Source: Prochlorococcus sp. AG-321-E21
GTDB taxonomy: Bacteria; Cyanobacteriota; Cyanobacteriia; PCC-6307; Cyanobiaceae
Direction: 5' to 3'
DNA: 64,000 nucleotides
Assembly (NCBI GenBank): GCA_003283415.1
Contig: QBXH01000002.1
Span: 1 to 64,000 of the forward strand
Program-made: the position numbers and the translations under genes
The notes under the pieces: generated by a model
The model's input: the letters and a program-made list of their open reading frames with translations, nothing else
What the model was told of the DNA's origin: nothing
Databases searched by the model: none
Shown here: positions 43,277 to 48,400 of the stretch, piece after piece
Numbering within the stretch: position 1 is the stretch's first letter
Layout of the letters: the number at the start of each line of letters is the position of its first letter

Positions 43277-43317
43277 TTATTCAATACTTTTTTATCTAAT
43301 CAAAAAGTATTGAATAA
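43277..43317. terminator. Bidirectional hairpin between convergent genes
   Basis: A perfect 16-bp inverted repeat, TTATTCAATACTTTTT (43277-43292) and AAAAAGTATTGAATAA (43302-43317), with a 9-nt loop, 15 bp after the peroxiredoxin stop. It also includes the stop and last codons of the minus-strand membrane protein (TAG at 43296-43298). The A/T tracts sit inside the stem, so it can serve as a terminator or stabilising end in both directions. Confidence 0.65.
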
Positions 43318-44057
43318 TATAAAAGTATCAATAAGTAAAATATAAAAAAGTTAAAAATTGGTGAAATTTCTTTTCTATATGGTTTTGGAACTCTCCAATC
43401 ACTTAAATATGAATCGTATGAAATATACGACCACAAATAAAAGAATATTTCAATAACTAACAGAATAATAATATTGATAATACTAATATTGTCGAATGTC
43501 GAAATATCGAATTGAGTTAAATCAGTTGATAAACTATTGTTAATTCGTATATACCAATTGACAACAGAAATTATAAAATAATTTATTAAAGTAATTTTTT
43601 TTATAATTAATTTAGTTCTTTTAAATATTAATAAAATAGATATAATCGGTACGATAATTATTTGTTTATCAATAAAAATATTAAATTCAAACAAGTCATT
43701 ATTATTACTTATAATAAAGTTATAAATTACATTTAAATTTATAAAAATATATACTGATAAAAGAGTTGAGAGTGTGACTAAAATAATTGATGTTATTAAG
43801 AGTAGAAACTTACCTCTAAAATTATTCCTTTTAGTAGCTTTATGAGAAATAAATTTATAATCTGTATACTGACTTAAAGAATTAATGATTACAAAAATTG
43901 GTACAAGTAGACCGCTTAAATAATATAAAATTTTATAAATACTAAAAGTATTAATATCAAATAAATATAAATTTAACCATTGTTTTTGAACTATAGGAAA
44001 AAGTAACACTAATAATAAAATTTTGGATATCCTTACTAGGCTAAATTTTATTATCAA
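43296..44057 (-). CDS. Multi-pass membrane protein, function unknown
   Basis: 253 residues, very hydrophobic and AT-rich. About six transmembrane helices are visible: ISKILLLVLLFPIVQ, ILYYLSGLLVPIFVIINSL, FLLLITSIILVTLSTLLSVYIFI, IIIVPIISILLIF, IINIIILLVIEIFFYLWSYI and the C-terminal FNFFIFYLLILLYYSI. A conserved-looking cytosolic patch is YDSYLSDWRVPKPYRKE near the C-terminus. No family recognised. It lies 34 bp downstream of the FtsH-like gene on the same strand and is probably cotranscribed with it. Confidence 0.7.
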   Translation of the reverse strand: MIIKFSLVRISKILLLVLLFPIVQKQWLNLYLFDINTFSIYKILYYLSGLLVPIFVIINSLSQYTDYKFISHKATKRNNFRGKFLLLITSIILVTLSTLLSVYIFINLNVIYNFIISNNNDLFEFNIFIDKQIIIVPIISILLIFKRTKLIIKKITLINYFIISVVNWYIRINNSLSTDLTQFDISTFDNISIINIIILLVIEIFFYLWSYISYDSYLSDWRVPKPYRKEISPIFNFFIFYLLILLYYSILFD

Positions 44058-44091: not shown

Positions 44092-45846
44092 TCATACTTT
44101 TATTAAATTAGAACTTATTTTTCTAAAAATATCATTCTCTATGGTTTCTTTTATTATTAAAATATCAACTAATTTCTCCAATAAAATTCGATTATTACTT
44201 ATGATATTCATGGCATTATTTAATGAAATCTTAGAAATATTGATAATTTCATTGTCTATTTTGGAGTAAGTATTATCAGCTATGATTGATTTATTCTTGA
44301 CAAAACCATCTCCAATTAATAATTCGCTACTATTCTCTATAGAAATAGGTCCTATTATGGAGAATCCATATTTAGTTACCATTTCTCTCACAACATTTGT
44401 TGCATAAGATATATCATTAATTGAGCATTGAGTAATTTCATTTTTACCATAGACTATCGTTTCAGCAGCCCTCCCTGCTAAGGCTATTTCAATTTTAGTT
44501 AACAATAATTTTTTTGAAATTAAACCACTTGATATAGTATCTTCGTCTGGATTAATTTTCGTATATCCCCCCATGTAGCCTGATCTAGGAAGAATTGTTA
44601 TTTTATCTACTGAATCGATGCCATTTCTAACGGCAGATACAATTGCACGTCCAACTTCATTATATGCAACTATTTTTTTCATATTTTGAGAAGAAACAAT
44701 AGAAGTACGAAGACCAAGAGTAACTTTATCTAATGCAGCCTCTATATGGTCATCACAAATGAATTTAGATTCTTCTCTAGCACAATGTATAGCACTTTCA
44801 TTCATTAAATTTGCCAAGTCAGCTCCAGAAAAACCTACTGTTCTTGTAGCCCAATATGCTAAATCTACATTTTTAGAAAGTGGTTTCGTTAAAGAATGAA
44901 CTGCGAGTATTTTTTTTCTACCATCTAAATCAGGTAACATTACTTCAATTTTTCTATCGAATCGCCCTGGTCTCAGAAGAGCAGAATCTAAAATATCTGG
45001 TCTATTTGTAGCAGCAATAACGATAATACCCGAATTATCCACAAAGCCATCTAGTTCCGTTAATAGTTGATTAAGAGTTTGTTCTCTTTCATCATTACCT
45101 CCTCCGATTCCAGAACCTCGTTGCCTTCCAATAGAATCAATTTCATCGATAAATATTATGCAAGGAGATTTTTCTTTAGCTTTTTCAAATAAGTTTCTAA
45201 CTCTACTTGCTCCAACACCAACAAATAGTTCAACAAATTCTGAAGCGGCAATAGAAAGGAAAGGAACTCCTGACTCGCCGGCAATAGCTTTAGCTAATAA
45301 TGTTTTCCCAGTTCCTGGAGGGCCTATTAATAGAATCCCTTTAGGTACTTTTGCTCCAAGATCTGTGAATTTTTTTGGTTCATTAAGAAATTTTATTACT
45401 TCTTTTAGTTCTTCAGCAGCTTCTGGAACTCCAGCAACATCATCAAATCGTGTATCTACATCATCAATAGTGACGAATTTGGATTTATTTTTACCAAAAC
45501 CTAAAGCTTTTGAAGCAAGTTTGGAGGTACTCCGCAATATTAAAACAACTGCGATTAAAAAAATTAAAAAAAGACCAACTGATGCAAAAGAATTTGCTGA
45601 TGTTAATTCTTTACGACTGTTATTAATGGTTAGCTCAACGTTATTTTCGGATGCTTTTTCAATAATTAATTGGTCATTATAAAGGATAGGTATTTTTTCT
45701 TTAATTCCATTTTTATAAAGAACGTCGATTTCCCTCTTTCTAGGATAAAAGTAAATAGATTTTATATTCCCCGAATCTAACTCTAATAAGAGATCAGAGT
45801 AGCTTTTTTTAGAATTTGAATATGAGAAATTTGATTTAAAGAACAC
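44092..45846 (-). CDS. FtsH-like AAA protein lacking the HExxH protease motif
   Basis: A membrane AAA protein related to FtsH/FtsHi. It begins with GTG at 45846 and has a periplasmic-type N-domain, one clear transmembrane helix (about 88-110), and a complete ATPase: [24 protein letters not shown] (Walker A), [15 protein letters not shown] (Walker B) and the SRH ([11 protein letters not shown]). Where FtsH has HEAGH, this protein has [10 protein letters not shown] (N396-R400, bases 44647-44661): both zinc-ligand His are gone although Glu is kept. The downstream ligand region ([15 protein letters not shown]) remains. The first FtsH membrane helix also appears absent. Unfoldase or chaperone activity without proteolysis is expected, possibly in hetero-oligomers. 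Confidence 0.92.
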
Positions 45847-45981
45847 TAATCTTCATTAAAATATAATAAATAAAGCATAAAAGCTTAGGGAAATAATTGC
45901 AGTATTTAAAATAAATATACTCAAATATTTGAGAGATAACCATTGAAAGGTTATATTAATAAATGGATATAATAAATTAGT

Positions 45982-46155
45982 ATGGCCGTTCCAAAGAAGA
46001 AAAAATCAAAGAGTAAGAGAAATCATAGACATGCTGTTTGGAAAGGTAAAGCAGCATTAGCTGCTCAAAAAGCTATGTCACTAGGTAAATCTGTTTTAAC
46101 TGGTAAAGCACAAGGATTTGTCTATCCAATTGATGAAGAAGAAAGTGATGAATAA
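45982..46155 (+). CDS. rpmF: 50S ribosomal protein L32
   Basis: 57 residues from the ATG at 45982 ([20 protein letters not shown]), the standard cyanobacterial L32 start, with [27 protein letters not shown]. No zinc-binding Cys are present, as in the plastid/cyanobacterial Cys-less form. It is divergent from the FtsH-like gene with a 135-bp spacer and ends 5 bp before a convergent gene. Confidence 0.96.
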
Positions 46156-46160
46156 TCTGG

Positions 46161-46487
46161 CTAAGATCCTAATTTAAAGGCTTCAAGTATTACAGCGTAA
46201 GTTGCACCAATTCGAATTTTATCAATTATTGACCACAAGTAAAATAAACTTGAATCCCTAGATGGTTTAACTCTAATTATTAGCTCAATAATAAATATTA
46301 TTATAGGAACCATTATTAACTCATTTTGGCCTTCAGAAATGAATTTAGTAACGAAATTTGCAAATAAAAAATAACCTATTAAAACAGAAATAATATTAAT
46401 AGATTTTGATTTCCAAGAGGAACTTAAAAAACCAAACAATAAATTATTAAATTGATCATTAATTCTTGAGAATTTTGTATTTTGCAT
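46161..46487 (-). CDS. ycf20: Ycf20/DUF565 family membrane protein
   Basis: 108 residues resembling Ycf20 (DUF565), a thylakoid-type membrane protein of cyanobacteria and plastids. It has an N-terminal helix with NTKFSRINDQFNNLLFGFLSSSWKSKSI, two or three hydrophobic segments (IISVLIGYFLFANFV, LIMVPIIIFIIELIIRV), and the C-terminal SLFYLWSIIDKIRIGATYAVILEAFKLG typical of the family. Plant homologues are linked to non-photochemical quenching. It abuts the HAD gene (1-bp gap) on the same strand. Confidence 0.75.
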   Translation of the reverse strand: MQNTKFSRINDQFNNLLFGFLSSSWKSKSINIISVLIGYFLFANFVTKFISEGQNELIMVPIIIFIIELIIRVKPSRDSSLFYLWSIIDKIRIGATYAVILEAFKLGS

Positions 46488-46488
46488 T

Positions 46489-47238
46489 TTAAAGAGTCAT
46501 CAAATATTTTTCCAAGTAGTCAAAATCAACATAGTTTCTATCAAGCTTAGGTCCTTTAATAACTTTAGCTTTGCAACTTTCATTACCTAGACAATCTATA
46601 AAACAATCTAAATCTATATCTTTATCAATATCAGCTGGAATATTTGAAGGAACATAAATAGTAGGAAGTTCAGCTGCTAATGAAGATCTGAGTCCAGGAG
46701 TAGAATCTTCAAAAACTATAGATTTATTAAATTTTATACCGCTTAATTTCATCGCTTTCAGGTAAGGCATAGGATTTGGTTTATGAAATTGAACGTCATC
46801 ACTTGAAATGATAAATTCAAATGGACTAAACTCTTTAAATAATTGCTTAATTATTAATTTTGCTTGTTTCTTAGAACTTGAAGTAACTATAAATTGTCTT
46901 ACTTTTTTTTTTTGTAGTTCCCTTATTAATCGATTAACACCCATTTTGAGTGATAAAACATTATTTTTTTTTACGTAATTAATATAGTGATATTGTTTTC
47001 TTTCATGAATCTTCTTAACTTCTTGATTATTCATCGAGTTATTTATTAATTTTGAATAATAAGAAATTCTATTTTTACCTCCATTTATTTTTAATAGATT
47101 TAAATATGTAGATATATCCCAATTCCAATTAAGATTAAAATCATTAAATGCGTAATTAAAAGCTGGTAAATGAGCTTCTAATTCAGTATTAGCAATTGTC
47201 CCATCTAAATCCCAATAAACACCTTCAAGGTAAGTCAC
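46489..47238 (-). CDS. HAD-superfamily phosphatase (CbbY/PGM-like)
   Basis: 249 residues of the haloacid dehalogenase superfamily. Motif I is VYWDLDGTIANTE (Asp nucleophile and acid-base Asp), motif II is QFIVTSSSKKQ, and motifs III/IV are in QFHKPNPMPYLKAMK and IVFEDSTPGLRSSLAA. The helical cap follows motif I, as in CbbY, beta-PGM and plastid SHB17-like sugar phosphatases. The substrate cannot be assigned from sequence. It is upstream of ycf20 in a two-gene run. Confidence 0.88.
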   Translation of the reverse strand: MTYLEGVYWDLDGTIANTELEAHLPAFNYAFNDFNLNWNWDISTYLNLLKINGGKNRISYYSKLINNSMNNQEVKKIHERKQYHYINYVKKNNVLSLKMGVNRLIRELQKKKVRQFIVTSSSKKQAKLIIKQLFKEFSPFEFIISSDDVQFHKPNPMPYLKAMKLSGIKFNKSIVFEDSTPGLRSSLAAELPTIYVPSNIPADIDKDIDLDCFIDCLGNESCKAKVIKGPKLDRNYVDFDYLEKYLMTL

Positions 47239-47417: not shown

Positions 47418-47765
47418 ATGAAGTCATGGAGTTGTATAGAAAATTGTGGAGCCTGTTGCCGTTTCGATTTAGCGGAGAGAGATAATATTACAGGAGTACT
47501 AAGCAGTAAAGATATAGCTTTAATAAATTCCATGACTGGTAAAGATGGATGGTGTAAATATCTTGATAAATCAAAAAGAAAATGCATGATTTATGAAACT
47601 AGACCACATTTTTGTCGTGTAAATGAATTTTCAAAATCATTCAAAAGTTATCTAAAAAATGGTGATGGATTTCTAATAGATTGTTGTAAACAACATATCT
47701 CCTCTATTTATGGAAGAAAAAGTATACAAATGAAGGCTTTTAAAACGGCTGTTTCAGAGAAATGA
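47418..47765 (+). CDS. YkgJ-family cysteine cluster protein
   Basis: 115 residues with the zinc/iron-chelating cysteine cluster of the UPF0153/YkgJ family: SCIENCGACCRFDL at the N-terminus, WCKYLDKSKRKCMIYETRPHFCR in the middle and DCCKQH near the end. Cytoplasmic metal binding, probably Fe-S or Zn, is expected; no specific role is known. It overlaps the first GDT1-like gene by 4 bp (ATGA), so they are translationally coupled. Confidence 0.88.
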   Translation: MKSWSCIENCGACCRFDLAERDNITGVLSSKDIALINSMTGKDGWCKYLDKSKRKCMIYETRPHFCRVNEFSKSFKSYLKNGDGFLIDCCKQHISSIYGRKSIQMKAFKTAVSEK

Positions 47766-48088
47766 ACATTGATTTAGAAAAAAAAGAAATAAAAGAAGAA
47801 AAAAATTTTTCATCTATATTTATAACAACATTTACTACCATATTTATTGCTGAACTTGGTGATAAAACACAATTAGCCACGCTATTATTAACTGCAGAAT
47901 CAGGTAAACCAATTGTTGTTTTTATAGGTAGTTCGATAGCATTAATAGGTTCTAGCTTAATAGGTGTATTAATTGGTAAATGGTTATCAAATAAAATATC
48001 ACCAAGTAGATTTGGCTTTTTTACTGGTTTATTAATGTTAATAATTAGTATATTTTTAGCTTATGACATTATAAAACCTTACATATAA
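47762..48088 (+). CDS. GDT1/TMEM165 family transporter, first half-size subunit
   Basis: Half-size member of the UPF0016/GDT1 family of Mn2+/Ca2+ cation transporters. The signature ELGDKTQLATLLL lies in the first transmembrane helix (from about residue 34), followed by two further helices (IVVFIGSSIALIGSSLIGVLIGKWL and FFTGLLMLIISIFLAYDII). One copy of the motif means it must pair, presumably with the adjacent second half. It overlaps the YkgJ gene by 4 bp and is directly followed by the second half. Confidence 0.88.
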   Translation: MNIDLEKKEIKEEKNFSSIFITTFTTIFIAELGDKTQLATLLLTAESGKPIVVFIGSSIALIGSSLIGVLIGKWLSNKISPSRFGFFTGLLMLIISIFLAYDIIKPYI

Positions 48089-48400
48089 ATGATTTTAAGT
48101 TTATTCCTATCGACATTTCTAACAATATTTATTGCCGAACTAGGAGACAAGACTCAGTTTGCTACGTTAACAATGAGTGGCACATCCAATAGACCTTTAG
48201 CCGTTTTTTTAGGTTCATCAACTGCTCTTGTATTAGCTAGTTTAATAGGTGTATTAGCAGGTGGATCAATTTCCAATTTTGTTTCTGAAATAATATTAAA
48301 ATCTATAGCATCTGTTACTTTTTTTATCTTAGGTACAAGACTTCTCATAATTTCATCTAATTCAAATAAAAATGATAATAATGAGAGAGATATTAAATAG
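48089..48400 (+). CDS. GDT1/TMEM165 family transporter, second half-size subunit
   Basis: 103 residues carrying the second copy of the motif (ELGDKTQFATLTMSG) and three hydrophobic helices (LSLFLSTFLTIFI, PLAVFLGSSTALVLASLIGVLAGG, SIASVTFFILGTRLLIIS). Its ATG directly follows the stop of the first half. Together they reproduce the two-repeat architecture of full-length cyanobacterial Mn exporters such as Synechocystis Mnx, so a heterodimer exporting Mn2+ across the thylakoid or plasma membrane is likely. Confidence 0.88.
   Translation: MILSLFLSTFLTIFIAELGDKTQFATLTMSGTSNRPLAVFLGSSTALVLASLIGVLAGGSISNFVSEIILKSIASVTFFILGTRLLIISSNSNKNDNNERDIK

Follow-up and report, generated by a model that had tools for sequence, protein, structure and literature searches.

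The stretch of Prochlorococcus sp. AG-321-E21 DNA analyzed here (64,000 nucleotides; positions 1 to 64,000 of contig QBXH01000002.1; hereafter the window) encodes an FtsH protein that has lost both histidine ligands of its zinc site and carries an intact set of ATPase motifs. It belongs to a clade of FtsH4 proteins from the genus of MED4 (hereafter the genus) and from six further groups, with a broken zinc motif in every genome read. In the same lineages the membrane protein UPF0182, which most active relatives encode downstream of ftsH4, has been shortened or lost. This coincidence suggests that FtsH4 and its membrane-protein neighbour probably work together. The earlier note on this DNA had proposed the downstream membrane gene as a possible partner, an idea that gains from the gene pairing, the remnant homology and the joint reduction or loss of UPF0182. 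Few phototrophs are as abundant as Prochlorococcus.

Identity of the protein and loss of its zinc site

The gene begins with a GTG codon and its 584-residue product matches the Pfam models AAA (160 bits), AAA_lid_3 and Peptidase_M41 (146.8 bits; cut-off 29.9), as well as the TIGR01241 FtsH_fam model (636.5 bits; cut-off 600). The AAA+ module with its Walker A and B motifs, FVG pore loop and arginines of the second region of homology (SRH) is present, as is the M41 domain; the HExxH zinc site is absent (NEVGR), and a single helix is found in place of the two N-terminal transmembrane helices. An AlphaFold model of the protein (mean pLDDT 75.6) still contains the predicted M41 helices, and its top Foldseek hits are E. 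coli FtsH, followed by the Ycf2-FtsHi motor. The protein fits the definition of FtsHi-type pseudoproteases (AAA and M41 domains, no HEXXH) as worded in an excerpt of PMC6460958. The features of the region are compiled in Table 1.

Table 1. Position of ftsH4, its motifs and the neighbouring genes in the window
Feature	Position	Strand	Basis
ftsH4 orthologue (pseudoprotease FtsH)	44092..45846	-	domain matches; MED4 FtsH4 primers exact on orthologue L008
Single transmembrane helix, about residues 87-105 (FtsH TM2), no TM1	45532..45588	-	hydropathy; helix 78-115 in model
Walker A GPPGTGKT, residues 175-182	45301..45324	-	
Pore loop FVGVG, residues 208-212	45211..45225	-	
Walker B IIFIDEID, residues 230-237	45136..45159	-	
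Second region of homology with arginines, residues 279-298	44953..45012	-	
NEVGR in place of HExxH, residues 396-400	44647..44661	-	alignment to E. coli FtsH (7vhp), motif reading
Asp 478, presumed third zinc ligand equivalent, kept	44413..44415	-	alignment to 7vhp
mini-UPF0182, 253 aa, multi-pass, best read as a C-terminally truncated UPF0182 (PF03699) remnant	43296..44057	-	34 bp after ftsH4; profile comparison
Region between divergent ftsH4 and rpmF, 135 bp	45847..45981	.	
rpmF	45982..46155	+	identified by reading sequence; divergent from ftsH4
DUF565 gene	46161-46487	-	Pfam
HAD hydrolase gene	46489-47238	-	Pfam

The MED4 and MIT9313 types were recognized among the orthologues through published FtsH4 qPCR primers (Table 1 of PMC6300248): the MED4 primers match L008, which reads NEVGR, with zero mismatches, and the MIT9313 primers match L166, which reads HEIGH, equally perfectly. 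By these matches the window gene is an orthologue of Prochlorococcus FtsH4, and the FtsH4 named in the relevant parts of PMC6300248 and PMC11262661 is the same gene as the window orthologue group.

The NEVGR segment aligns with HEAGH of E. coli FtsH (7vhp; within the stretch AYHEAGHAII), with Glu E397 kept and both histidine ligands gone, exactly at the residues and bases that the earlier note had given. Two further M41 genes are present in the window's own genome (1.31 Mb, 73% complete), both with HExxH. With two of three zinc ligands missing (Asp 478, retained, being what we take to be the equivalent of the third), the window protein should not cleave peptides, judging from its sequence.

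An orthologue with at least 74% identity occurs in 77 of the 101 genomes of the genus sample and in 28 of the 29 whose completeness reaches 90%; the remaining one, G098 (97% complete), has no FtsH4 orthologue and only three M41 genes. In the family sample, FtsH4 is matched at E 1e-158 in 258 of 300 genomes, and the motif was read in a part of this sample (24 genus, 24 other inactive and 47 active genomes). Both histidine ligands are absent from all 68 genus genomes with a readable motif (66 NEVGR, one NEAGR, one NEGGR), which rules out a sequencing error or a strain mutation; the check for HEAGH in close relatives, proposed in the earlier note, thus returned none among these genomes. Three named Prochlorococcus records, possibly duplicates of some of them, also read NEVGR. 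All 24 genomes read in the six further groups (g4, g11, g17, g27, g39, g56) likewise have a broken HExxH motif, in the forms NEVGK, HEAGR, HEIGK, HQIGK, NEAGK, NEVGR, NEIGR, YEIGR, NEIGI, NTIGR, QIIGK, QQVGR, RNASK and RESAR; from their genome size and their position in the tree we infer that these groups belong to Prochlorococcus. All remaining genomes and records read, including the MIT9313 type, have HE[IV]GH (51/51). Single-genome ftsH4 copies with one in-frame stop were encountered in G125 (L214), G193 (L222) and G107 (L142), and are either decaying or assembly errors.

Origin of the inactive clade and constraint on FtsH4

Duplicates and rows shorter than 520 residues were excluded from the main tree, which leaves 115 rows; FtsH4 of the genus makes up 11 of these. 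When the tree was calculated without the motif columns, the 35 inactive rows formed one clade (SH-aLRT 99) that is nested among active Cyanobiaceae FtsH4 proteins, and this clade was also recovered in an LG+G4 tree without L208. Mapping of the residue changes on the tree requires one change of the second His, eight of the first His and three of the Glu; every inactive row except one has Lys or Arg in the second His position. In the residue counts, the HL group consists of 11 orthologues and three active paralogues, the latter accounting for its three His. A single change of the second His, combined with multiple changes of the first His and the Glu, indicates that the zinc site was broken once, at the second His, and was then eroded in parallel; multiple independent inactivation is consequently rejected for the second His, whereas the first His and the Glu did change repeatedly. 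Motifs intermediate in this conversion of a protease into a pseudoprotease are still present (HExxK, HQxxK, NExxR), and HExxK and HQxxK are read as its surviving intermediates. In a proxy for the species tree that was built from the three other FtsH paralogues of 17 genomes, the inactive genomes and G098 group together (support 92).

Orthology of Cyanobiaceae FtsH4 to Synechocystis FtsH1 is unsupported by the tree, in which the reference groups come from Microcoleus, Dolichospermum and Cyanobiaceae: the Cyanobiaceae FtsH4 proteins branch apart from the FtsH1/2-, FtsH3- and FtsH4-type groups, types that we assigned from N-terminal features. The most divergent FtsH4 is L208 of G103 (SYRNASK, 574 aa, branch length 1.56), which still has a mini-UPF0182-like open reading frame downstream. 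A cyanobacterial FtsH from Microcoleus FACHB-1515 (L209) branches beside the Cyanobiaceae FtsH4 clade and may be an extrafamilial relative.

One strong hydrophobic stretch is found in the window protein, and the second-best is weak in FtsH4 rows, most of the active ones included, whereas FtsH1/2-type and FtsH3-type paralogues have two. Since a stop closes the frame two codons before the GTG, and the divergent rpmF begins only 135 bp away on the opposite strand, no first membrane helix is encoded. The earlier note had seen this helix as missing from a protein starting with GTG, and so it is, with the frame closed upstream; its absence, however, is a feature of the FtsH4 clade, because eight of the ten active orthologues examined also lack TM1. 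Helix loss is therefore not tied to protease loss, and its interpretation as a part of the inactivation is rejected; judged from these orthologues, the missing first helix predates inactivation and is common to most active copies examined. In L155 and L156 a hydrophobic stretch lies far upstream, within a frame that is defined only from stop to stop.

Walker A, Walker B and the SRH, described as canonical in the earlier note, are indeed so, and they are, together with the pore Phe, fixed or nearly fixed across the inactive clade. The Walker A Lys, the Walker B Glu, the pore Phe, the sensor Asn and two SRH arginines are invariant in all inactive rows checked; R298 is replaced by Lys in one inactive row, and other AAA motif positions, for instance in the pore loop, vary slightly outside the genus. 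The dN/dS values, calculated according to Nei-Gojobori on chosen rows, are rough because dS often exceeds 1. They amount to 0.081 for FtsH4 in the genus (AAA 0.053, M41 0.122), to 0.076 in g56, and to 0.013 to 0.027 for the three active FtsH paralogues of the genus, three to six times below its FtsH4; a set of active FtsH4 proteins from other groups gave 0.155, a value from distant and partly saturated pairs. With NEVGR in 66 of the 68 genus genomes and a dN/dS of 0.081, near-fixation of the motif and purifying selection, both points on which the earlier note had hinged, are borne out; as to gene decay, which it had named as a refutation, the aligned part of the gene is free of in-frame stops in all 68 genus genomes. 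The ratio of M41 to AAA branch lengths, with L208 excluded, is 1.82 in the inactive clade (13.40/7.37) versus 1.36 in active copies (12.82/9.45), so that relative to AAA the M41 domain of the inactive clade evolves about 1.3 times faster. The higher dN/dS than in active paralogues and the faster M41 domain point to a weaker constraint, and inactive FtsH4 looks as if it has been kept as an ATPase under weaker constraint than the other FtsH proteins of the genus.

The downstream membrane protein and its coupling to ftsH4

In active lineages near the inactive clade, UPF0182 (PF03699) is encoded directly after ftsH4, for example by L174 (903 aa, E 2e-221) and by the MIT9313-type L166 (E 3e-152). 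In inactive lineages other than g56, a multi-pass protein of 250-277 aa stands at this place. Neither the product of 43296-44057 in the window (no Pfam match at E 0.001 with hmmscan) nor its short relatives L139, L216, L227, L212, L208, L150 and L008 (no PF03699 match at E 1) are recognized by single-sequence searches. In profile comparisons with hhalign, the non-HL short proteins match UPF0182 over positions 20-280 (prob 98.9, E 2e-17), and the HL short form matches those of the other groups (prob 96.7, E 4e-10); directly against UPF0182, the HL form gives a weak match (prob 79.6, E 1.5e-5). Furthermore, an LSDW-like motif is found at an equivalent place close to the end. Given these profile alignments and this motif, the product of the downstream gene is best read as UPF0182 minus its last membrane helices and its C-terminal domain. 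It resembles UPF0182 in its alignment to the N-terminal transmembrane part and in its place after ftsH4, and differs in retaining about 260 of about 900 residues and in having no Pfam match of its own.

The short open reading frame is intact in 60 of 60 HL genus genomes with enough downstream sequence (median gap to ftsH4 33 bp; dN/dS 0.33); the contigs of the remaining eight genomes, out of 68, break off too early to show it. No remnant adjoins ftsH4 in the six g56 genomes (6/6), and the HL short form has no match elsewhere in three g56 genomes or in G098, although a protein this divergent could easily be missed in such a search. Since the inactive FtsH4 of g56 persists without the adjoining remnant, the partner seems not to be needed there. 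A structural model of UPF0182 is good in the membrane part only (best Foldseek hit E 0.31), and a sequence search for solved relatives yielded one chance-level hit (E 0.66).

Positions of both ftsH4 and UPF0182 were available for 104 genomes, in 101 of which both lie on one contig. In 100 of these 101, UPF0182 follows ftsH4 within 3.5 kb and in the same orientation (directly adjacent in 40, not adjacent in 60); the two genes are far apart in G162, and they sit on separate contigs in G380, G374 and G345. PF03699 is matched in 44 of the 47 genomes with an active FtsH4, only partially in G107 and G121, a count from which four named active records are left aside; the three without a match are G108 (99% complete, g9), G122 (62%) and G384 (79%). 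Individually searched genomes with an inactive FtsH4 gave no match in any of 48 cases (24 from the genus, 24 from the six other groups). Because the inactive genomes form one clade, this coincidence counts as one event plus g26, not as 48 independent cases. The g26 genome G126 (99% complete) lacks both ftsH4 and UPF0182 and groups with an active lineage (support 83), and on this gene content it is a second joint loss. The coupling is not strict, since g9 keeps an FtsH4 orthologue without UPF0182 in eight of eight genomes (e.g., L228); G108, the g9 genome with a motif read, is active (HEVGH). Full UPF0182 and HEIGH are present in G125, yet its ftsH4 contains one in-frame stop, and G172 has a UPF0182 fragment at a contig edge, with FtsH4 not found.

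The DUF565 and HAD hydrolase genes are found upstream of ftsH4 in many loci of the family. Further along in the window lie tandem, adjoining half-size genes for GDT1 (PF01169) divalent cation/proton antiporters (47762-48088 and 48089-48400, both on the + strand).

Known pseudoproteases and possible functions

That an FtsHi-like kind of protein occurs in Prochlorococcus is already known in print: a single sentence in PMC6460958, repeated in a passage of PMC8197885, counts one FtsHi in P. marinus SS120 by the absence of HEXXH. This SS120 protein very probably belongs to the same gene family as the window gene; the statement concerns one strain, and that passage describes no orthology, origin, distribution, selection or partner. 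The literature searched, namely open-licence papers mostly at title level, yielded nothing on the inactive clade, on its origin in steps or on a coupling with UPF0182. None of the papers listed for UPF0182 has the term in its title or abstract, and two of them also contain FtsH. The FtsH4 protein of MED4 and its relatives, which has been treated as homologous to Synechocystis FtsH1 (passages of PMC6300248 and PMC11262661) with functions presumed to be parallel (PMC11262661), should not cleave; the words "zinc" and "inactive" are absent from PMC6300248.

The plastid FtsHi proteins (FtsHi1, 2, 4 and 5 with FtsH12 and Ycf2; 8xqw, 8xku) share with Prochlorococcus FtsH4 the FtsH architecture and the loss of HExxH; Prochlorococcus differs in having one gene, one membrane helix, and UPF0182 in place of FtsH12 and Ycf2. 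The earlier note had suggested a free-living cyanobacterial counterpart of FtsHi. This stands insofar as FtsH4 is a conserved pseudoprotease that is under purifying selection and whose ATPase motifs are intact, and is weakened with respect to descent: because the loss took place a single time within Cyanobiaceae FtsH4, surrounded by orthologues that still have HExxH, the protein would be a free-living analogue of separate origin, as judged from a tree without plant rows.

Inactive FtsH4 descends from an active, single-helix picocyanobacterial FtsH4 whose gene is paired with that of a large membrane protein, UPF0182. The second zinc His was lost in the ancestor of a clade comprising the genus of MED4 and six small-genome groups, with MIT9313 outside, and in the same descendants UPF0182 was cut to its N-terminal transmembrane part or lost. 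What remains is, judging from sequence, a membrane-anchored AAA+ subunit that keeps the checked ATPase and substrate-threading residues and should cut no peptides; with mini-UPF0182 as membrane partner, the remaining pair would unfold, dislocate or scaffold a client instead of degrading it. We infer the physical complex, the ATPase activity, the hexamer and the client. Most simply read, the two proteins are functional partners that jointly gave up an output domain each. On balance, we favor with modest confidence the view that inactive FtsH4 is an ATP-driven membrane unfoldase, dislocase or scaffold that remodels a client and is paired with mini-UPF0182. It is a more tentative proposal, and one we consider somewhat less likely than not, that picocyanobacterial FtsH4 and UPF0182 form one membrane machine from which the MED4 clade discarded the zinc site and the C-terminal half of UPF0182 together. 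If true, this stripped ATP-driven remodeller of dead FtsH and mini-UPF0182 would be a bacterial equivalent of the plastid FtsHi motor that evolved convergently, and would for the first time open UPF0182 to functional study. The present results already give UPF0182, a family without a known function, a testable partner.

Alternatively, inactive FtsH4 could be a regulatory subunit, joining active FtsH paralogues of the cell in mixed hexamers and reducing or redirecting the proteolysis they carry out. Its intact AAA motifs would suit this role, cyanobacterial FtsH proteins build FtsH1/3 and FtsH2/3 heterocomplexes according to an excerpt of PMC9020784, and plastid FtsHi is part of a motor complex with Ycf2, as far as entries 8xqw and 8xku describe it. 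However, the tree separates Cyanobiaceae FtsH4 from the other three paralogue groups, the protein has no first membrane helix, and what is conserved beside its gene is UPF0182 rather than another ftsH; we regard a regulatory role as unlikely.

It appears quite improbable that FtsH4 is a vestige that lost its job with UPF0182, is slowly decaying and persists only because its loss is slow. The relaxed M41 domain, a dN/dS of 0.08 set against 0.013-0.027 in the active paralogues, the repeated erosion of His, Glu and Asp, the absence of the gene from G098 and the in-frame stop of the G193 copy would all be expected of such a relic, but the 68 stop-free genus copies, the nearly invariant ATPase motifs at a dN/dS far below 1, and the neighbour that is intact in 60 of 60 genomes with a dN/dS of 0.33 speak against it.

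That FtsH4 is still a protease by way of another metal site is scarcely credible: the Glu and the third-ligand Asp are retained in the window protein and the M41 helices are still predicted in its model, yet both His ligands are replaced, by Asn and Arg, and the Glu and Asp also vary in relatives, which is incompatible with one shared alternative site.
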